This document shows, piece after piece, positions 42,877 to 51,210 of a DNA stretch of 64,000 nt. This stretch comes from an uncultured Methylobacillus sp. (GTDB taxonomy: Bacteria; Pseudomonadota; Gammaproteobacteria; Burkholderiales; Methylophilaceae). A program made the translations under genes and the position numbers. Below the pieces are notes generated by a model. That model worked only from the letters and a program-made list of their open reading frames with translations, ran no database searches and had not been told where the DNA came from. Positions within the stretch are counted from its first letter, which is position 1; the number at the start of each line of letters is the position of its first letter. The stretch is from positions 62,001 through 126,000 of the forward strand of contig CAIJXJ010000262.1 in NCBI GenBank assembly GCA_903824575.1, read 5' to 3'.

Positions 42877-43112
42877 CTGCGCGGACTTTATTAAATTAAA
42901 GGCGCAACGGCGAATGTTCGGGGAGTTTGGTGGCTCCGCTGTCATTTGGCTGTCTGCCAGGAAGATCGGAAACTTTGCGTCACTGCCTTTCGGTCAGTTT
43001 TGCCCTTGTCAACATGACGCATATTCCGACTAATCGAGTTTTATGTCAATGAAATGAGCGGCATGAGTTGCGGGGTGCAAGAATATTGAGTTCGGGGGTT
43101 ATAATACGTGCC

Positions 43113-44483
43113 ATGAAATTATCTGCTGATTTGCTCCACAAATACGTCAAGGCCGGTCCGCGTTACACCTCGTACCCCACTGCGCCCTATTTCAACGAGA
43201 GTTTTGGACCTGCGCAATGGGAACAAGAGTTGCGTGCCAGCCAGGACCAAGGGCGCGACATCTCGCTGTATGCGCATATCCCGTTCTGTGACACGCTGTG
43301 CTATTACTGCGGTTGCAACATGATTGCGACTAAAGATTACAGTAAGGCGACGTCCTATCTGGAGGTGCTGTTTCAGGACATTGAACGGATCGCTGCCTTG
43401 ACCAATCCGGCGCGACAAGTACGTCAACTGCACTGGGGCGGCGGAACGCCTACTTACCTCAAGCCAGATGATATTCGTCGTTTGGCTGCGCACATGACGG
43501 GCAAATTCAACATGGCGGTGGACGCGGAAATCGGCTGTGAGATGGACCCGCGCGAATTGACGCGCGACCATGTGCGCGCCCTGCGTGCATCTGGCTTCAA
43601 TCGCCTGAGTCTGGGAGTGCAGGATCTCGATCATCAGGTGCAGGTGGCTGTCAACCGCGTGCAACCGGAAGTCTTGATCCGCGAAGTTTATGGCTGGATC
43701 CGCGACGAGGGTTTTGCCAGCGTCAACTTCGACATCATGGTCGGCCTGCCGCACCAGACTCTGTCCAGCTTCGAGCGCACGCTGGATACGGTGATCGCGA
43801 TGGCACCGGACCGTTTCGCCGTGTTTAATTACGCCCATGTGCCCTGGATGAAGAAGCACCAGAAACTGATTGTGGAAGAGACTCTGCCGCAGCTCGATGT
43901 GCGTCTCGAGTTGCAGAAACTGACGCTGGAGAAACTCACCGCAGCGGGTTACGTCTATATCGGCATGGACCATTTCGCCCGCCCCGATGACGAACTGGTC
44001 AAGGCGCAGCAATTAAAGACCTTGTATCGCAATTTTCAGGGTTATACCACACACAAGAATTGCGACATCCTGGCCTTTGGCGCCTCCGCCATCAGTCAGA
44101 CCGATGATGTTTACGCGCAGAACAGCAAGGTGCTGTCAGATTACCGCAGCATGGTCGAAGCGGGACAGTTGCCGGTCGAACGGGGCTTGCGCATCAGCCA
44201 TGAAGACAAGTTGCGGCGCGAGGCCATCACCAGCATCATGTGCGATCTGGAACTGGACAAGGCGGCGTTTGGTGGGCAATGGGGTATCGATTTTGACCAG
44301 TATTTCGGCCAAGCATTGGAAGACCTCAAGGCCATGCAGGATGATGGTCTGGTCTTGCTGGAAGCCGACAAGGTGCGCGTGACCGAGGCGGGGCGTGTTT
44401 TCCTGCGCAACATCGCCATGGCATTCGACAGCTATCTGGCACAACCGGCAAGCGACAAGCCGCGCTATTCCAAGACAGTCTGA
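43113..44483 (+). CDS. hemN: Oxygen-independent coproporphyrinogen III oxidase
   Basis: This 456-residue radical SAM enzyme decarboxylates coproporphyrinogen III for anaerobic haem synthesis. The cluster motif is PFCDTLCYYCGC; KAGPRYTSYPTAPYF, QLHWGGGTPTYL, NRLSLGVQDLD and YIGMDHFARPDDEL are all HemN signatures. The ATG at 43113 follows a TATAAT box by only 7 bases, with no visible ribosome site. Its last 19 bases overlap the end of the convergent ATP-grasp gene. Confidence 0.96.
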   Translation: MKLSADLLHKYVKAGPRYTSYPTAPYFNESFGPAQWEQELRASQDQGRDISLYAHIPFCDTLCYYCGCNMIATKDYSKATSYLEVLFQDIERIAALTNPARQVRQLHWGGGTPTYLKPDDIRRLAAHMTGKFNMAVDAEIGCEMDPRELTRDHVRALRASGFNRLSLGVQDLDHQVQVAVNRVQPEVLIREVYGWIRDEGFASVNFDIMVGLPHQTLSSFERTLDTVIAMAPDRFAVFNYAHVPWMKKHQKLIVEETLPQLDVRLELQKLTLEKLTAAGYVYIGMDHFARPDDELVKAQQLKTLYRNFQGYTTHKNCDILAFGASAISQTDDVYAQNSKVLSDYRSMVEAGQLPVERGLRISHEDKLRREAITSIMCDLELDKAAFGGQWGIDFDQYFGQALEDLKAMQDDGLVLLEADKVRVTEAGRVFLRNIAMAFDSYLAQPASDKPRYSKTV

Positions 44484-45697
44484 TTGCCTTCGGTCAGGCG
44501 CAGCAGGAAGTCGCGAAAGGCATATTTCACCTTCTGCATGTGCTGCCGTTTGTAAGGGAACAGGTCCTCCGGGTCCATCGCATGTACCACCATGGCGTGG
44601 TCAATTTCGAATACCAGCAGTTGTCCGTCACGGGTCTCCGCGCAATCGATGCAAAGATAATCGAGCAGGGTGCGCTGGTAAATGGCCTCTAGTGCTGATC
44701 GGTGGCGATCGACAAAGCCGTCGAAATTCGCCATGAATGTGGCTTCTTCTGCCCTTTTTGCGGCATCTTCGTACATGTCCGCATTGACGTAGTGCACCAT
44801 CCAGTTTGATGACACCGCCATATGGCAAGCATAGGCCCGGCCGTTGATCAGGACCACCCTGACCTTGCGGAACAGGCCGTCATCATTGCGGTAATCGATG
44901 AATCGCGACAGGAAAAATTCGGTGTCCTTCACGCGGGCCAGGTAAGCAGCGAGGTCTCCAGCACGTTCGATCTTGTCCAAATCGTGCCCGGCCTGGGATG
45001 CCAGTGGGCGCAGGATGATGGGAAATTCGCAAGCCTTAAACTGGCTGGGTAGCGTTGCATTGCCGGCCGCGATATGCAGCAGGGTCTCGCGGGAAGCGCG
45101 CAGAGTGGGTGGGATGAGCAGACCCGGAACGTCGGCCAGCAGGACGCTTGCCTGGTTGCGGTCGGTGCCGGGAATGTATTGTGGCGCATTGATGACCGGT
45201 TTTGGCCAATGGCGCAGCTGAGACTCCAGAAACGTCAGTAGCGCCTGATTCTGGTCGGAGATGCCTATGGTCACGATCAGGGCGTCGTGTTCAGGTACGC
45301 TCCCGGATAAGGGCATGTCTGGCGTGACGTAATGGAAGATCAGGTCGATATCGCAGTCTTCCAGTAGACAGTCGAGCGGCGTATTGCCGGCAAGGTCTCC
45401 TTCTACCATCAGCATTAGCAGCTGGAGCTTTGCTGGTTGGCGGGCGGCTGTCAGCTGGTAGGTGCGTGTCATCGCCAGTGCCTGAGCCTGGATGGCCAGG
45501 CCGGCATCGCGTTGTCCGAGGCAGAGCAGCGCAATCGACAGGTTCATCCACAGCTTGGCATTTTCAGTATCCTGCTCAAGCTTGGCCAGGATCTCGCGCG
45601 TGAGGGGCAGGAAATTGATGCTGGCAATGCTCATGCGTAGAAAAGGAGCAAGCCCAAGGAATCGGATTTCAGGCTGTATATTGAGGGGAGTGCTCAT
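44465..45697 (-). CDS. TPR plus ATP-grasp-like protein in glycosyltransferase cassette
   Basis: This 410-residue protein has an N-terminal helical region with one or two TPR-like units (AKLWMNLSIALLCLGQRDAGLAIQAQAL in parts) and a C-terminal part that looks like an ATP-grasp ligase: FPIILRPLASQAGHDLDKIE (nucleotide loop), FFLSRFIDYRNDDGLFRKVRVVLING in parts, and FEIDHAMVVHAMDP (metal-binding acidic end). RimK-like ATP-grasp enzymes join a carboxylate to an amine or thiol. The ATG overlaps the upstream GT41 stop (TGATG), so it is coupled to the glycosyltransferases. Possible roles include making an amidated sugar or modifying a protein. Function is inferred only. Confidence 0.72.
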   Translation of the reverse strand: MSTPLNIQPEIRFLGLAPFLRMSIASINFLPLTREILAKLEQDTENAKLWMNLSIALLCLGQRDAGLAIQAQALAMTRTYQLTAARQPAKLQLLMLMVEGDLAGNTPLDCLLEDCDIDLIFHYVTPDMPLSGSVPEHDALIVTIGISDQNQALLTFLESQLRHWPKPVINAPQYIPGTDRNQASVLLADVPGLLIPPTLRASRETLLHIAAGNATLPSQFKACEFPIILRPLASQAGHDLDKIERAGDLAAYLARVKDTEFFLSRFIDYRNDDGLFRKVRVVLINGRAYACHMAVSSNWMVHYVNADMYEDAAKRAEEATFMANFDGFVDRHRSALEAIYQRTLLDYLCIDCAETRDGQLLVFEIDHAMVVHAMDPEDLFPYKRQHMQKVKYAFRDFLLRLTEGNQTVLE

Positions 45698-47514
45698 CAA
45701 TTCCTCGGGAGTTTCTCAGTTTGCACCGGTTGGGGATTACCGTCACGCAGGCGCATTTCGGTAAAGATCTGTTCGAGGCCACGGGCGAAGGCCGCAACAT
45801 CCATCAGCGGGCTGTGCTCCATGCTGCTGCGCAAATTGTTGCGAATTTTTTTCAGCCGAGCACGATCGCCGGCAAGAGCTGTCGCCATGCGGACGTACTC
45901 GTCAGGGCAGGACGCCGTCAATTCCTGTAAATCCAGCACGCGCAATAAATTGCTTCCAAGGCGTGAATGCAGGGCTTGTCCTTGCATGGTGATATAAGGT
46001 GTTCCCATGTACAGGCAGTCAATGCCGGTGGTCCCGCCATTGAATGGAAACGGGTCGAGAGCGATATCGAGTTCGCGATAGGTGGCGAGATAGGTGTCGT
46101 AATCCATTCTGCCGTGTATGGTCAGTCGATTGAAATCGACCCCCATGCTGGCAAAACGATTCTTGATGTCCGCAACCAGACTCTGATCATTGCCACCGGT
46201 TGCTACCAGCACCAGGCGCGCGTTTGGCAGTTCGCGCAAAATGTGTGCCCAAGTACTCATGGCTGATGGGCTGACCTTGGTGAAATTATTGAGGCAACCG
46301 AAGGTGATGAAGCCATTGACATCGCAAGGGGGACAACTCGGCACCGGCAGCGGGATTCTGAATGGATCAAGGACGTAATAACAGGCCGGTAGCGCCATCG
46401 GGATTTCCGTACACCAGTGACCTGCCAGCAGAACCGGGTCTGGCGGAACCAGAATGTAATCCATGGCACTGAGCCCTGAGGTGCCAGGAAAACCCAGCCA
46501 AGTGACCTGAATGGGTGCGGCCCTGCGGGCAAAAACTGTCAATCGGTTGCCGCCGGTATGGCCAGATAAATCGACCAATATATCGATGCGGTCGCGACCA
46601 ACAAGTTCTGCAACCTGATCGTCCCCCAAGCCGGAAATTTCCCGCCAGCATGAACAAGCGTTTTTCGCCCGCAATGTCAATTCATCCATCACATAAGAGT
46701 TGGAATAAATAATTGATTCAAAGCTGTCGTGATCCAGGTGCTCGAGTACCGGAATAACGAAAAATCCGACTGGATGCAACCTTATGTCGCCGCTTACCCA
46801 GCCAATGCGAATCTTGTCTGGAGTTGGACGGGCAGCAACATTGAGGCCGATATTTTGAGTGCCGGTTTCCTGGCGCACACGCTGATCGAATTGGCGGGCC
46901 GCAGTGACAATCTCATCTGATGTCACGGCATCGGAATGCAGCATCGCCCACAGCAAATTGCTGAAATCTTGCACGTTATTGGGGGCGGCATCGATGGCGC
47001 GCTGAAACCAGTTAATGGCCTCGTTTGGCATCCCGGCGTCTTTGCACATGGTGCCAAGAGCGCTCAAGGTTGGTGTGTCATCAGGCCTCCTGGCCAAGAC
47101 CTGATCGGCCGCATGAATAGCACGATCAACCAAGCCAAGTCTTGAATAGGCGACCACCAGATTGCTCCATGCCGACAGATTGTCGGGATTGAGGGCGACC
47201 GCTTTTTCCAGGTTTTCCTGTGCGATGTCGAACTGTTCTCTCATGCAGAAAACCAGGCCGAGTCCGACCAATACCTGATCTTCCGGCAGGCCGAGACGAA
47301 AGGCATCGCCATAAGCGTCAACCGCCTCGGCCCACCGACCAGCTCTGGCCAGTGTCAGTCCAAGATTGACGCGGGCGCTTGGATCTTGAGTATCAAGTCG
47401 AATGATCTGTTGCCACAGTTCAATTGCTTCCAGCCAGCGCCCACGCTTGGCCACGGCCTCCACCTCGATAAAAAGAGCGGTCTTGGTCGCGGTTGGCGTC
47501 GGGAGTTTGGTCAT
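45697..47514 (-). CDS. TPR-linked GT41 glycosyltransferase (SPINDLY/OGT-like), apparently active
   Basis: This 605-residue protein has about five TPR units (residues about 10-190: GRWLEAIELWQQIIRLD, GRWAEAVDAYGDAFRLG, AQENLEKAVALNPDN and others) and a GT41 catalytic region. Key motifs are intact: RIGWVSGDIRLHPVGFF with the conserved His near residue 245, VDLSGHTGGNRL, VTWLGFPGTSGLSAMDYIL, TFGCLNNFTKVSP with the catalytic Lys, and DPFPFNGGTTGIDCLYMGTP. GT41 enzymes transfer GlcNAc, fucose or related sugars to Ser/Thr. Location next to fliC suggests flagellin as target. Starts as TAATG after the GT2-like gene. Confidence 0.9.
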   Translation of the reverse strand: MTKLPTPTATKTALFIEVEAVAKRGRWLEAIELWQQIIRLDTQDPSARVNLGLTLARAGRWAEAVDAYGDAFRLGLPEDQVLVGLGLVFCMREQFDIAQENLEKAVALNPDNLSAWSNLVVAYSRLGLVDRAIHAADQVLARRPDDTPTLSALGTMCKDAGMPNEAINWFQRAIDAAPNNVQDFSNLLWAMLHSDAVTSDEIVTAARQFDQRVRQETGTQNIGLNVAARPTPDKIRIGWVSGDIRLHPVGFFVIPVLEHLDHDSFESIIYSNSYVMDELTLRAKNACSCWREISGLGDDQVAELVGRDRIDILVDLSGHTGGNRLTVFARRAAPIQVTWLGFPGTSGLSAMDYILVPPDPVLLAGHWCTEIPMALPACYYVLDPFRIPLPVPSCPPCDVNGFITFGCLNNFTKVSPSAMSTWAHILRELPNARLVLVATGGNDQSLVADIKNRFASMGVDFNRLTIHGRMDYDTYLATYRELDIALDPFPFNGGTTGIDCLYMGTPYITMQGQALHSRLGSNLLRVLDLQELTASCPDEYVRMATALAGDRARLKKIRNNLRSSMEHSPLMDVAAFARGLEQIFTEMRLRDGNPQPVQTEKLPRN

Positions 47515-48320
47515 TAAAGGTCTCGCAGGAGAGCGACGGTGGCGCGGCGCAGGTGATCTTGCTGCCAGACTTGCCGCAGGGCCGTAGTGTCGTCGAACAT
47601 GGCAACACGGGATTTCATGGTGCGTAGCGGCGCCAGGGGAGTATTCGCATCCAGTCCAAGACTGGAGGCATGTTTTGTGACAAAGCGTTGCCGATAGCGC
47701 TGCCAGTCCTGCCCCATCACGCCTGGCGACATATGAATGATCGCCACATCGGTCATGACGCCGATACGCAGTCCAAGCAGATGTGCAGAAAAGCTGAAAT
47801 CAAGATCGTAGAGGTGAAATCCATCGAATGTCTCGGTATCGAAAGCCAGGGCGTCAACGCTTTCACGACTGGCAACGAAACAGAGTCCGTCCAGGGCCTG
47901 TATGTCTTCCTCAACTTCTGAATCAGTCACTCCATAGACATTCAGGGCGATTTGGCGTCTGTTGGAAATTGCGTGTGCCACAACGCCACGCATGTGCTTT
48001 GGGCCGGCGGCCCACCAGTAACCATCGCTCAGTTGAGTGGTGCCGGCAAATCCGAGCAATTGAAAGCCGCTGGCTATGCGCAGCTCAACTTTGGCTGCAA
48101 ATGCCTGATCCAGTATCAGGATGTCGTCATGTGAAAAAACAAGGATGTTACCCCTGGCACGCTTGATCCCGCGGTTGTACCCTTCCGATAAGGAAGTGGC
48201 ATCATGAATGCCGATGATTTCAAACACAGTCCCTGCCAGCAGGTGCTCGTAACACTGGCTGACCTGAGCAAATTTGCAGGCATCAATGCTGCAAATGATG
48301 ATGGACCAGGCAGGCTTCAT
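47514..48320 (-). CDS. GT2-like glycosyltransferase (Glyco_tranf_2_5 type)
   Basis: This 268-residue protein begins MKPAWSIIICSIDACKF and has ATSLSEGYNRGIKRARG then NILVFSHDDILIL, matching the small family with the SLxxxYNxGI and FxHDD motifs, where HDD replaces DxD. LDGLCFVASRESVDAL and FHLYDLDFSFSAHLLG are conserved too. It probably uses a nucleotide sugar. It starts inside the stop of the upstream GT41-like gene (ATGA) and ends on the start of the next (TAATG), so all are coupled. The target is not known; a second sugar on flagellin is plausible. Confidence 0.86.
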   Translation of the reverse strand: MKPAWSIIICSIDACKFAQVSQCYEHLLAGTVFEIIGIHDATSLSEGYNRGIKRARGNILVFSHDDILILDQAFAAKVELRIASGFQLLGFAGTTQLSDGYWWAAGPKHMRGVVAHAISNRRQIALNVYGVTDSEVEEDIQALDGLCFVASRESVDALAFDTETFDGFHLYDLDFSFSAHLLGLRIGVMTDVAIIHMSPGVMGQDWQRYRQRFVTKHASSLGLDANTPLAPLRTMKSRVAMFDDTTALRQVWQQDHLRRATVALLRDL

Positions 48321-50119
48321 GGGAATTGCTCCAGCGTGCCACCTTGTTGTCGCCAAAGGTCTTTGAGTACCAGACCAAAGGCAGAGGCATAGCCGTTGGT
48401 GTCGCTGAGAGGAGATTCTTTCAGGCTGTCCCGCACTGATTTTTTGTCGCGTCCGGTTTTGGCTATTTGTGTGGCGAGGTCTATGTAATCTTGCGTCGAC
48501 TGCGCGAGATAATGATCTAGCTCCAGTTGTTGTAACATACGGCCAGGAGCGTGCCCCCAAGGGGTGGTATTGCCACAGGCAATGCTGGGAATGTCTAATG
48601 AAATGCCAAGCAGAGTAGACGATGTGCTATCACCGGTCAGTGGGCAGAGGCCAAGATCTATCATTGGCCAGAATTCAGAACTGCACATCCCGCCCTTGAT
48701 TGCTACCCATAGTATACGATCATGATTTATGTTGTAGCCCAACATCTTGTCAATCACGTGCCGTTTGGCTGACTCTCCAAGTGCTGCTGAATTAAGCAAC
48801 AAATGCGTAGCCGGATTAGCGATCAGGATTTTAGACCAAGCGATCCAGGTTTTTTGTGAGATTTTATTGATTGGAATCAGGCAGCCAAAAATGAAGGGTC
48901 GTTGCCTCGACTTGGCCGGAAATTTGATGCAATTAATCTGCTGAAATTCATAGGCGGCATGGGTCAAAGGCATGCGCAAGTATTGCTCGGTTTGGAATGG
49001 GGACGGTTCGGTTGGCTCGGAGTCGGTCTGAGGCCCGGTGATGATGAAATCCATGTTGCACAAGCCCGTGGCCACCGGTGGGTTAGTCCAGTTGAGTTGG
49101 AGCGGTGCCGATCGCCTGACAAAAGGTTCCAGTGCCGGCAGGCAGGAATAAGCTTCAACATTGACCAAGATGTCGGTGCTCATTTCACGGATCAAATGAT
49201 CGGTTGCGTCAGAGTCCAGGTGCGCGGTGGCCTTCCAGTGGTCGGCAATCAGGTATAGCCGCTGCGCGTTCTCTCCCTGGAACGTGTCCTTGGCAAAGAT
49301 GATGGTTTCAAAGCGCGCGCTGTCGAGTTTTCGGATCAGCGGTTCAACCCGACAGCGAATATCATCAGCTGCCAGATTGCCAATCACGAAGCCAACACGC
49401 AATCGTTGTCGCCTCTCTGCAGGCAGAGTCTGCACCGAAGCTCTGCCGTGCGTGTCGGCAAACTGGCTAATCTGAGCATGGTATTCACTGACAGTTGCAT
49501 CATCGCACCAGGCCAGTAATTCGATGCCACGAGCGTGGGTATCCGGATATTGCGTGGCACGAAAGTACAGTGAGCTTTCCAGTTCCAGATCCCCTAATTG
49601 CCTGGCCAAATCCAGAATGATTGGCAGAATCTCGGCTGTTGCAGCTGAATTTTTATTCATCGCCGAGATCAGGAGTTGTAGTGCTTCGGCATGGCGCCCT
49701 TGACGCCACAATGCATCGGCCAGTTGTACAAAGGCAGTGATCAGGGTGGGTTTTGCATCAATCACAGCGGTCAGGTAATGTTCGGTGTAGGCCCAATGTC
49801 CTGCATTCATGCAGTGCTGACCGATACAAGTTTTCATCTTGGTGTCATCGGCCGAAAATTCAATGGCATGATCGAAAAATACCTTGGCATCCTGATGCAA
49901 TCCGGAAGATAGAGCGATAAGCCCCAGATGAAGCAGTGCCTCGGGATGGTTGGGCTCGGCATCGAGGACATGCAACCAGGCGTTGTACGACTCCCGCCAT
50001 TGCCCATTTTGGAAGCAGGTGAGGGCAAAATCCATGCTGCTGTGGGCCGGTTGGGTCGAAATAGCAGGCAAGTCTGTGCTTGGATCAGATTCGGTTGCCT
50101 GGTTCTCAGGTTTTTTCAT
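48317..50119 (-). CDS. Divergent TPR-GT41-like protein with altered active-site motifs
   Basis: This 600-residue protein keeps the TPR plus GT41 layout: TPR units over residues about 28-190, then RLRVGFVIGNLAADD, LQLNWTNPPVATGLCNMDFII, FIFGCLIPINKISQKTW and a final LGLCPLTGDSTSSTLLG. Compared with its neighbour, the HPV motif is replaced (DDIRCRVEPLI), GHT becomes VEAYS, and the NGGTT sugar-nucleotide loop becomes GDSTSST. The central Lys is kept. It is either inactive and regulatory, or has changed donor or acceptor. It is the first gene of the cassette, divergent from fliC, with AAGAG before its ATG. Confidence 0.84.
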   Translation of the reverse strand: MKKPENQATESDPSTDLPAISTQPAHSSMDFALTCFQNGQWRESYNAWLHVLDAEPNHPEALLHLGLIALSSGLHQDAKVFFDHAIEFSADDTKMKTCIGQHCMNAGHWAYTEHYLTAVIDAKPTLITAFVQLADALWRQGRHAEALQLLISAMNKNSAATAEILPIILDLARQLGDLELESSLYFRATQYPDTHARGIELLAWCDDATVSEYHAQISQFADTHGRASVQTLPAERRQRLRVGFVIGNLAADDIRCRVEPLIRKLDSARFETIIFAKDTFQGENAQRLYLIADHWKATAHLDSDATDHLIREMSTDILVNVEAYSCLPALEPFVRRSAPLQLNWTNPPVATGLCNMDFIITGPQTDSEPTEPSPFQTEQYLRMPLTHAAYEFQQINCIKFPAKSRQRPFIFGCLIPINKISQKTWIAWSKILIANPATHLLLNSAALGESAKRHVIDKMLGYNINHDRILWVAIKGGMCSSEFWPMIDLGLCPLTGDSTSSTLLGISLDIPSIACGNTTPWGHAPGRMLQQLELDHYLAQSTQDYIDLATQIAKTGRDKKSVRDSLKESPLSDTNGYASAFGLVLKDLWRQQGGTLEQFP

Positions 50120-50202
50120 TTATAACTCTTGAATCAGTGGCCATGCTTAAGCCTGGAAGTTTCATTCTAACCTTCAAGACACGAGGCTTGCCAGGCAATT
50201 TA

Positions 50203-50221
50203 AAACTTGAAGCTTAAGTTT
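50203..50221. promoter_or_regulatory. Near-palindrome between the glycosyltransferase cassette and fliC
   Basis: AAACTT-GAAGCTT-AAGTTT is a 6-bp inverted repeat around an AAGCTT core, with one extra G breaking perfect symmetry. It lies 84 bases before the minus-strand GT41-like start and 72 bases upstream of the fliC -35 box. It could be an operator for the divergent pair; nothing else supports this. Confidence 0.35.
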
Positions 50222-50292
50222 ACAAGGTGAAGCATCAAAGCTTGCAATGCCTAGCGCTTGAGGGGCCGGCAGTTAAATGCTTGCAAAAAATC

Positions 50293-50319
50293 TAAAGTTT
50301 TTCTGCGCGCTCCCGATAA
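50293..50319 (+). promoter_or_regulatory. Sigma-28 (FliA) promoter of fliC
   Basis: TAAAGTTT (50293-50300), 11 bases, CCCGATAA (50312-50319). This agrees with the FliA consensus TAAAGTTT-N11-GCCGATAA at all but one position. Transcription should start near 50327, leaving a leader of about 74 nt with two small hairpins. Confidence 0.94.
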
Positions 50320-50327
50320 AGGTCTAA

Positions 50328-50393
50328 CGGCGGAGAACTCGCCGGTTAAAACGGCAAGAGCCGTCATGAATTTTGAGCTAACTTTGTCAGGAG
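50328..50393 (+). promoter_or_regulatory. fliC leader with two hairpins and GGA sites
   Basis: Hairpin 1 pairs CGGCG (50328-50332) with CGCCG (50340-50344), exposing GAGAACT next to a GGA. Hairpin 2 pairs ACGGC (50351-50355) with GCCGT (50360-50364). The ribosome site AGGAG (50389-50393) contains a second GGA. GGA in a loop plus GGA in the ribosome site is the usual form of CsrA-repressed leaders, so post-transcriptional control of flagellin is plausible. Confidence 0.45.
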
Positions 50394-50400
50394 AATTAAA

Positions 50401-51210
50401 ATGGCCTTAACGATCAACACCAATATCGCATCTCTGAATGCCCAGCGCAATCTGATGGTTAGCCAGCAGTCGTTGCAGTCTTCAATTAATCGCCTTTCTT
50501 CTGGCCTTCGCGTCAATAGCGCGGCTGATGATCCTGCCGGTCTCGCCATCGCAACACGCATGGCCCAACAAGTATCCGGCATGACGCAGGCTATTCGCAA
50601 CACTAACGATGGTGTTTCGATGATGCAAACGGCAGATGCTGGCCTCGCCTCCATGGCTGATATCCTGGGCCGGATGCGTGACCTTGCGGTGCAGGCCCTG
50701 AACGGAACCAATGGCAGCGCCGACCTGAAAAATCTGGACACGGAATATCAGGCCCTCAATTCGGAATTGACCCGGATTCCAACGGCGACGGTGTTTAACG
50801 GCGTGACTGTTATTGGTGCATCTGCTGGCACGACGACGCTGCAAGTTGGCGCAAATGCTGCCGATACGATTTCTATTATCACCAATACTGCAACAACCTA
50901 TGCTCCAGCGGGTGCTATCACGGACGCGGCATCCGCGTCAACCGCGATGACCACAATCGACACGAATACTGCCTTGGTCAATACCGACCGTGCAACCTAT
51001 GGCGCTACGACCAATCGCCTTAATTATTCGATCACGGCGTTGTCAGCCGACGTGACTGCAACTCAAACCGCCAGGGGACGTATCGTTGACGCCGACTTTG
51101 CCACAGAAACGGCGAACATGACGCGTGCCAATGTGCTGCAACAGGCAGGAACCGCTGTGCTGGCACAGGCTAACGCCATCCCAAATCAAGTGTTGACCCT
51201 GTTGCGATAG
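50401..51210 (+). CDS. fliC: Flagellin
   Basis: This 269-residue protein forms the filament. The N-terminal D0/D1 region is canonical (INTNIASLNAQRNL, SSINRLSSGLRVNSAADDPA, ATRMAQQVSGMTQAIRN), and the C-terminal D0/D1 is present (ARGRIVDADFATETANMTRA, QQAGTAVLAQANAIPNQVL). The central section is only about 80 residues, Thr/Ala/Ser-rich, so domains D2/D3 are essentially absent. The Thr/Ser-rich stretch (NTATTYAP, STAMTTIDTNT) offers many possible O-glycosylation sites. It is the only flagellin gene in the window and is divergent from the glycosyltransferase cassette. Confidence 0.97.
   Translation: MALTINTNIASLNAQRNLMVSQQSLQSSINRLSSGLRVNSAADDPAGLAIATRMAQQVSGMTQAIRNTNDGVSMMQTADAGLASMADILGRMRDLAVQALNGTNGSADLKNLDTEYQALNSELTRIPTATVFNGVTVIGASAGTTTLQVGANAADTISIITNTATTYAPAGAITDAASASTAMTTIDTNTALVNTDRATYGATTNRLNYSITALSADVTATQTARGRIVDADFATETANMTRANVLQQAGTAVLAQANAIPNQVLTLLR

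Follow-up and report, generated by a model that had tools for sequence, protein, structure and literature searches.

In Caulobacter, the flagellins are glycosylated in the cytoplasm by one soluble TPR-GT-B protein, FlmG, whose TPR domain binds the flagellins directly and which uses pseudaminic acid made by NeuB (PMC7591256). This binding provides a precedent for the docking of flagellin on TPRs. The C. difficile type B locus combines glycosyltransferase genes near fliC with an ATP-grasp gene (PMC5207245, PMC5207246), and its flagellin glycan does not receive the peptidylamido cap unless the ATP-grasp gene, CDR20291_0245, is present (PMC5207246). The Shewanella oneidensis flagellin modification operon sfmABCDE likewise ends with an ATP-grasp gene (412 aa product), loss of which shifts the flagellin mass (PMC3765264). 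ATP-grasp genes in flagellin-glycan loci are therefore already known. GT41 enzymes with a SPINDLY domain, most of them carrying methyltransferase domains, are present in flagellin loci of Enterobacteriaceae islands, each strain being reported with a single transferase family (PMC4875605).

A coupled four-gene cassette divergent from fliC

Here, we analyzed a 64,000-nucleotide stretch of DNA (the window) from an uncultured Methylobacillus sp. Four minus-strand genes are arranged in it as a cassette. G1 (48317..50119, 600 aa) encodes a TPR protein with a GT41/OGT-like C-terminal fold and a degenerate active site, G2 (47514..48320, 268 aa) a PF13712 GT2-type glycosyltransferase with an SHDDI motif, G3 (45697..47514, 605 aa) a predicted protein glycosyltransferase of the TPR-GT41 type in which the H, K and TT positions are intact, and G4 (44465..45697, 410 aa) a putative ligase from a TPR-linked ATP-grasp family that is distantly RimK-like. 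The longer listed reading frame starts of G2 (48560, TTG) and G4 (45700, TTG) are mechanical calls. As originally predicted, the gene coordinates place the four genes in direct coupling via ATGA, TAATG and TGATG junctions, and the start of G1 lies 281 bp (50120..50400) from that of fliC (50401..51210, plus strand). The latter encodes a flagellin of 269 aa (PF00669 and PF00700), the presumed acceptor. Between 44300 and 50500, promoter-like sites were not above shuffles (3 versus a shuffle mean of 4.1), and nine terminator-like sites were counted versus a shuffle mean of 5.7 (sd 2.3); neither count was given weight.

The cassette resembles FlmG in its TPR-linked GT-B enzymes, but two GT41-fold proteins are accompanied by a GT2-type enzyme and an ATP-grasp protein. 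The source genome (99.33% complete) yielded no match to the NeuB family (PF03102), for which the control matched in 9/14, and this argues against nonulosonates. Maf-type transferases (PF01973) also gave no match in this genome; here the control matched only in four archaea. The ATP-grasp protein of C. difficile type B belongs to Pfam 13535, whereas G4 has no such match, and GT41 is unmentioned in the accessible portions of the reports on that locus (PMC5207245, PMC5207246). In the Shewanella operon, sfmA resembles PseI, and the corresponding portion of that report does not mention a GT41 pair (PMC3765264). Compared to the Enterobacteriaceae islands, the cassette couples GT2-type with GT41 genes and its second GT41 protein is degenerate.

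The original prediction had held that the combination of a GT41 pair with GT2-type and ATP-grasp genes matches no well-known flagellin system. Among the literature matches listed, the cassette appears in no title or abstract opening, and no paper was found there that joins Dechloromonas with flagellin and glycosyltransferase, or flagellin, glycosyltransferase, tetratricopeptide and ATP-grasp. The claim is weakened by the C. difficile type B and Shewanella sfmE precedents, which at the same time lend support to the idea of an amide-linked group.

The three core genes recur beside fliC

Related loci were collected by scanning a single genome from each species with G2 as the only seed, fliC playing no part. 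Among the resulting 21 loci, G3, G1 and G2 occur together at six, in Dechloromonas (the core is present in D. denitrificans and D. hortensis) and Azoarcus-like MAGs. At all six, fliC is divergent from G3, in contrast to 0/13 loci with distant or unrecognized GT41-like neighbors (Fisher p 4e-5, where the six do not all represent separate lineages and short stretches occur among the 13). Since the gene set and its linkage to fliC recur at six loci found without fliC, the association is more than chance. The remaining candidates were rejected as core loci, L167 because its 20.8 kb contain G1 and G2 (the latter in three copies) while lacking both G3 and fliC, and L169 because only two G2 copies are present (4.4 kb).

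Gene order varies: the window has G1-G2-G3 and the MAGs have G3-G1-G2, while in Dechloromonas G1-G2 and G3 face each other. The full set including G4 was found at no other locus examined. The four-gene order is hence not widespread, while a three-gene core recurs in other arrangements. With three of the four genes accompanying fliC at every core locus, the proposal of a dedicated flagellin-modification locus is supported, and we consider flagellin glycosylation by the core genes likely. The cassette could alternatively be directed at another surface or cytoplasmic molecule, with the adjacency to fliC being incidental. GT41 genes are indeed very common in the order, where 122/349 genomes contain a match to G3 at E<=1e-60, but the constant divergent placement of fliC at core loci recovered independently of it makes this explanation improbable.

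G2 itself scored 82.6 bits with PF13712 (cut-off 27) and shares 49% identity with its D. denitrificans counterpart, the SHDDI motif being the same in both. A relative at E<=1e-25 was found in 2/368 other genomes of the class, and the 3.7 kb examined there contained no flagellin gene. Flagellar genes were also missing from the stretches examined at 13 non-core G2-like loci, mostly from Nitrotoga (L171-L183; L175 covers only 3.6 kb), and at 17 further ones (L117-L133); at two of the latter, L129 and L131, fliC lies about 1 kb past the edge of the stretch.

Catalytic positions of the two GT41-fold proteins

G3 matched PF13844 with 159.6 bits (curated cut-off 25) in addition to TPRs. Its closest solved relative is SPINDLY (SPY; E 8.5e-86), to which it can be aligned at the active-site residues. 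SPY activity is abolished by mutation of H495 or K665 and strongly lowered by T748A (PMC9715652). The equivalents of all three residues (H, K, TT) are kept in 7/7 core G3 proteins and, judged by sequence, G3 is a complete TPR-GT41.

G1 also carries TPRs and scored 33.8 bits with PF13844 (cut-off 25). Its structure model (mean pLDDT 64.8) matched SPY with a Foldseek E of 3.9e-20 and XcOGT with a Z score of 23.8 over 391 aligned residues, but with an rmsd of 20.5. The G1 proteins of the different loci, which were paired by position and by a better match to G1 than to G3, share only 21-24% identity with the window copy. The equivalents of SPY H495 and T748 are gone from 8/8 G1 members and that of K665 from 7/8. 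G1 agrees with GT41 in profile and fold, but with degenerate catalytic positions in the eight members compared, reading the original prediction as two GT41 enzymes would be misleading, and one enzyme with one probable partner is likelier. G1 is probably non-catalytic. Pairs of an active transferase and a non-catalytic partner are known from GtfA/GtfB and EryCIII/EryCII, which belong to families other than GT41 and are not known to act on flagellin.

Could G1 and G3 both be active, with different donors, so that the changed G1 pocket reflects a changed donor and a longer glycan is built? The exceptional G1 copy that keeps the K665-equivalent lysine is that of the window, which has Ser in place of Thr and could therefore retain activity. 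This speaks for such an arrangement, as do the OGT-like fold and the fact that, where the TT site has been lost, the G1 proteins of the relatives have a new stretch in common. The loss of residues at positions important in SPY throughout the G1 proteins speaks against it, and we regard two active enzymes as rather unlikely.

All six G1 relatives scanned (L164 was outside the scan) contain fused domains, namely GT2 in L163, methyltransferase in L165, L166, L168 and L170 and both in L167. Window G1 has no fused domain.

Affiliation of the ATP-grasp protein

G4 gave no Pfam ATP-grasp match at E<=1, PF13535 included. Weak NCBIfam matches were obtained with CofF (E 5.4e-4) and RimK (E 5.5e-3), and the rimK_fam model matched 19/21 members of the G4 family at E<=1 (best 3.8e-8). 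The ATP-grasp domain scored 17.3 bits with RimK TIGR00768, below the curated cut-off of 143.4. With an E of 0.0027, the best solved relative is 3vpd, which bears the name ribosomal protein S6 modification protein; this match was obtained with the ATP-grasp domain alone, as a G4 profile including the TPRs was swamped by TPR proteins in the PDB. D351 and E364, which we take to be metal ligands, are invariant in 21/21 family members. A single-sequence structure model of G4 was too low in confidence to be used (pLDDT 33.8). These comparisons point to a distantly RimK-like ATP-grasp protein.

None of the 21 loci from the G2-seeded scan contains G4 in the stretch examined, and the D. denitrificans genome lacks it as well, indicating a local addition to the core. 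The family as such is present in 64/349 genomes examined in the order. In viral contigs, none of 11 pattern stretches was confirmed as a relative of G4.

Does G4 act together with the core genes or is it a hitch-hiker in the operon that serves an unrelated pathway, as its serC- and decarboxylase-linked relatives seem to? In the examined stretches, serC is present at 14/78 G4-family loci and a PLP decarboxylase at 45/78. Window G4 groups with the serC-linked members in the tree (98/96 support), its nearest relatives adjoin serC and not flagellin, and no core locus elsewhere has it. On the other hand, the junction read in the window couples G4 translationally to G3, a paralog in the same genome (contig C256) overlaps a TPR gene that itself matches GT9 weakly, and ATP-grasp genes have precedents in the two flagellin systems described above. 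Furthermore, flagellar genes occur at 15/78 relatives' loci, not counting the window, versus 0/29 in the control, a weak enrichment given that at control loci L129 and L131 fliC is located about 1 kb outside the stretch. Weighing these points, we see almost an even chance that G4 acts on the flagellin glycan, while the hitch-hiker explanation is a serious possibility of somewhat less than even weight.

A possible pathway for flagellin decoration

Given the recurrence of the core beside fliC and the residue patterns of G1 and G3, we favor, with some reservation, a dedicated cytoplasmic unit for flagellin O-glycosylation with G1 as partner, G2 as extender and G4 as amide-ligating enzyme. FliC would be the acceptor, and before its export G3 would start the glycan by transferring a sugar from a nucleotide donor to its Ser/Thr residues. 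G1 may act as a non-catalytic partner or scaffold whose TPRs bind flagellin and/or G3; in relatives it bears methyltransferase or GT2 domains, as if delivering glycan-modifying activities. The glycan would then be extended by G2. The locally added G4 would most likely link an amino acid or another amine or carboxylate to it as an amide, and such an amide-linked group is plausible. More speculatively, G3 and G1 might be the two subunits of a single GT41 flagellin O-glycosyltransferase. G1 would then be a flagellin-recognition scaffold recruiting exchangeable modifiers (the fusions in Rhodocyclales, the coupled ATP-grasp protein here), and the distantly RimK-like ligase would cap the glycan with an amino acid or amide. 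We hold this extended version to be doubtful.

A compact and testable flagellin glycosylation system without sign of nonulosonates would thereby be at hand, with its core in the cultured genus Dechloromonas. It raises the question whether GT41 enzymes of the OGT/SPINDLY family can use a catalytically dead paralog as acceptor-recognition subunit. The G4 family, a poorly described and widespread ATP-grasp group, becomes a candidate for surface-protein decoration.

Size and composition of neighboring flagellins

The expected co-occurrence of the cassette with short flagellins was not seen. Fifteen loci from the window's own family encode flagellins of 265-280 aa, and a G3- or G2-like gene is present at only three of them; as these loci are the best fliC matches, they were chosen for likeness to the short flagellin. 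With 12/15 lacking any G1-, G2- or G3-like gene in 16-20 kb, the correlation of the cassette with short flagellin was discarded. Nor could loci that have the cassette be told apart from those that lack it by the Ser/Thr content of the flagellin center. Within the genus of the window, two genomes (G001 and G002) contain neither a fliC match at E<=1e-15 nor G4. Longer flagellins do occur elsewhere in the family, three genomes (G009, G019 and G028) having open frames that span about 490-520 aa.

The cassette and its genome

Four genes of the window, numbered G1 to G4 in transcription order, occupy positions 44465-50119 of the minus strand and are coupled by ATGA, TAATG and TGATG junctions. Coordinates and junctions bear out the original observation of four coupled genes divergent from fliC, which lies on the opposite strand 281 bp from the cassette start. 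The fliC product has 269 aa and contains both flagellin domains (Pfam); we read the genes downstream of fliC as flaG, fliD and fliS. The genome comprises 3.66 Mb in 315 contigs and is 99.33% complete. The 3' end of G4 overlaps by 19 bp (44465-44483) that of a convergent gene at 43068-44483, which we take to be a hemN-type oxidase. A second flagellin gene of this genome, at C4:17450-18256 (L214), encodes a protein 86% identical to the window flagellin, and no match to flaG, fliD, fliS or fliK was found in the 20 kb surrounding it.

G3 and its probable partner G1, degenerate at the active site

G3 has the complete TPR-GT41 architecture (PF13844, 159.6 bits). Among solved relatives SPINDLY comes closest (E 8.5e-86), with human OGT behind (about 4e-58). 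Since SPINDLY is a protein O-fucosyltransferase (PMC9715652), GDP-fucose, UDP-GlcNAc and other sugars are all possible donors for G3, and the sequence gives no choice among them. G2 is a PF13712 transferase whose SHDDI motif is identical in the window and Dechloromonas.

G1 combines TPRs with a GT41 domain that scores only 33.8 bits. Structural comparison of its model (mean pLDDT 64.8) gave a match to XcOGT (Z 23.8, 391 residues aligned), whose rmsd of 20.5 we attribute to the two domains being placed uncertainly, and a Foldseek match to SPINDLY (E 3.9e-20). When seven G3 and eight G1 proteins were aligned, the equivalents of SPINDLY H495, K665 and T748 were H, K and T in all seven G3 proteins. 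The H495 and T748 equivalents are gone in 8/8 G1 proteins (the latter is Ser in the window copy) and that of K665 in 7/8, the window copy retaining K. Mutation of H495 or K665 abolishes SPINDLY activity and T748A significantly reduces it, the H495 effect being perhaps structural according to the authors (PMC9715652). These losses at positions important in SPINDLY indicate that G1 is being retained next to G3 even as its active site degenerates; the window G1, as the least degenerate copy, may possess residual activity. Of the two GT41 proteins originally proposed, G3 is more likely the one enzyme and G1 a probable non-catalytic partner.

The N-terminus of G1 is variable. A domain scan covering the window copy and those of L163, L165-L168 and L170 found no extra domain in the former. 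The L163 copy has a GT2 domain, those of L165, L166, L168 and L170 have a methyltransferase, and that of L167 has both. Given this variability, we read G1 as a scaffold that delivers modifying enzymes to flagellin.

The core beside flagellin in other genomes

Two aligned G2 proteins served as the query, with no flagellar sequence, in a scan of a one-genome-per-species collection, and 21 loci were obtained. Six of them carry the core G3+G1+G2: L163 (D. denitrificans), L164 (D. hortensis), L165, L168 and L170 (Azoarcus-labelled MAGs) and L166 (a betaproteobacterial MAG). Their G3 proteins share 39-44% identity with the window G3, and their G1 proteins 21-24% with the window G1, each being closer to G1 than to G3. 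At all six a flagellin gene is divergent from G3, about 180-320 bases away by predicted ORF starts at five loci, the spacing at L170 being unclear; in the window the immediate neighbor of fliC is G1. Gene order differs, with G1-G2 facing G3 in Dechloromonas and G3-G1-G2 co-directional in the MAGs. L167 combines G1 with three copies of G2 but has neither G3 nor fliC, and two G2 copies lie on the 4.4-kb contig of L169. In the remaining 13 loci, mostly Nitrotoga, no flagellin gene lies within the stretch examined, and at most of them the GT41-like neighbors are larger and more distant. Flagellin linkage in 6/6 core loci versus 0/13 gives a Fisher p of 4e-5, which represents fewer than six independent events because the core loci are mutually related. 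D. denitrificans (G168) belongs to the same order as the window genome. Among the matches listed for 348 other sampled genomes of the order, it alone has a G3 match of at least 40%, and its G2 match adjoins this one. The core recurs at these six loci, in other gene orders than in the window, but the set including G4 was found at no other locus examined.

Co-occurrence with short flagellins, originally proposed as a check, was not borne out: at 15 loci of the window's own family, selected as best fliC matches, flagellins measure 265-280 aa, and only 3/15 have a G3- or G2-like gene. Flagellin Ser/Thr content did not separate own-family loci with and without cassette genes.

At L172-L181 and L183 (Nitrotoga and related), a G2-like protein and as many as three large GT41-like proteins are encoded in a conserved cluster, with no flagellin match within the stretch examined.

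G4, a distantly RimK-like ATP-grasp protein

G4 gave no ATP-grasp Pfam match at E<=1, and its single-sequence model, at a pLDDT of 33.8, was too poor to use. Of 21 members of its family, 19 show similarity to RimK with E<=1, the best at 3.8e-8. The solved relative that scores best (E 0.0027) is 3vpd, which bears the name ribosomal protein S6 modification protein. All 21 members share two acidic residues at positions corresponding to the metal ligands of ATP-grasp proteins, and we assume that they have this role, as in RimK-type enzymes. G4 is an addition to the core: it is absent from the stretches examined at all 21 G2-scan loci and from the D. denitrificans genome.

The G4 family occurs in 64/349 genomes of the order at E<=1e-50, the window genome included. 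Neighborhoods were compared at 78 loci, mostly the strongest among the matches listed, and none has G1 or G2. At 41/78 loci the G4-family gene is accompanied by a PLP decarboxylase together with a protein that matches no Pfam family, and at 14/78 by serC; in the tree the window G4 clusters with serC-linked members (support 98/96). Flagellar genes were detected by tblastn in the stretch at 14/78 loci, or 15/78 if L047 is added, whose FlaG was detected by Pfam; L041, L043, L265, L270, L280 and L287 have fliC and further flagellar genes. None of 29 control glycosyltransferase loci has flagellar genes in the stretch, but fliC lies just past the edges of L129 and L131, so the enrichment around the G4 family is suggestive only.

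The decarboxylase set is widespread and comprises the PLP decarboxylase, a TPR-linked ATP-grasp and a protein of ~500 aa (e.g. L044 8149-12621, L046 7633-11936), sometimes beside flagellin. The ~500-aa protein has no Pfam match in the copies of L042, L043, L044 and L046 and no NCBIfam match in those of L045, L046 and L047. The window genome also encodes a G4 paralogue (43%; L048 8495-11078, contig C256) overlapping a TPR gene that matches GT9 weakly (20.8 bits versus a cut-off of 22), perhaps a second pairing of glycosyltransferase and ATP-grasp.

Proposed pathway and related systems

Flagellin would be modified in the cytoplasm ahead of export. By analogy with FlmG of Caulobacter, which like G3 unites TPR and transferase in one protein, G3 would start the glycan, G1 would aid flagellin recognition and G2 would extend the glycan. 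FlmG, a TPR-GT-B protein, modifies flagellin in the cytoplasm and binds it directly via its TPR domain (PMC7591256). No NeuB-family synthase was found in the window genome, the control matching in 9/14 genomes, which makes a system based on pseudaminic, legionaminic or sialic acid unlikely. A Maf search gave no match in the window genome, but its control matched in archaea only.

ATP-grasp genes in flagellin loci are already known. A mutant in C. difficile CDR20291_0245 lacks the terminal peptidylamido sugar (PMC5207246), the flagellin cap there containing taurine, alanine and glycine (PMC5207245), and loss of Shewanella sfmE shifts the mass of flagellin (PMC3765264). The family named for the former is Pfam 13535 and for the latter 'ARP-grasp_4' (so printed), whereas G4 has no PF13535 match and would, on this comparison, be a parallel solution to both. 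The two labels presumably denote one Pfam family.

GT41 enzymes occur in flagellin islands of Enterobacteriaceae, each strain reportedly having transferases of one family only (PMC4875605); the window cassette, in contrast, couples GT41, degenerate GT41, GT2-type and ATP-grasp proteins. The suggestion that the system may be undescribed survives for the combination of active GT41, degenerate GT41, GT2-type and distantly RimK-like ATP-grasp, which was not found among the titles and abstract openings listed in literature searches, but not for flagellin-locus GT41 and ATP-grasp genes as such.

A different gene set adjoins fliC at L221 (10349-16324, genome G020): a PEP mutase-cytidylyltransferase fusion, phosphonopyruvate decarboxylase, a gene weakly resembling aminotransferases and another resembling CDP-glycerol transferases, together with a roughly 2500-aa multi-glycosyltransferase protein. 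The same set is present in L218 (G036), families having been scanned in L221 only, and the flagellins of both may be phosphonate-decorated.
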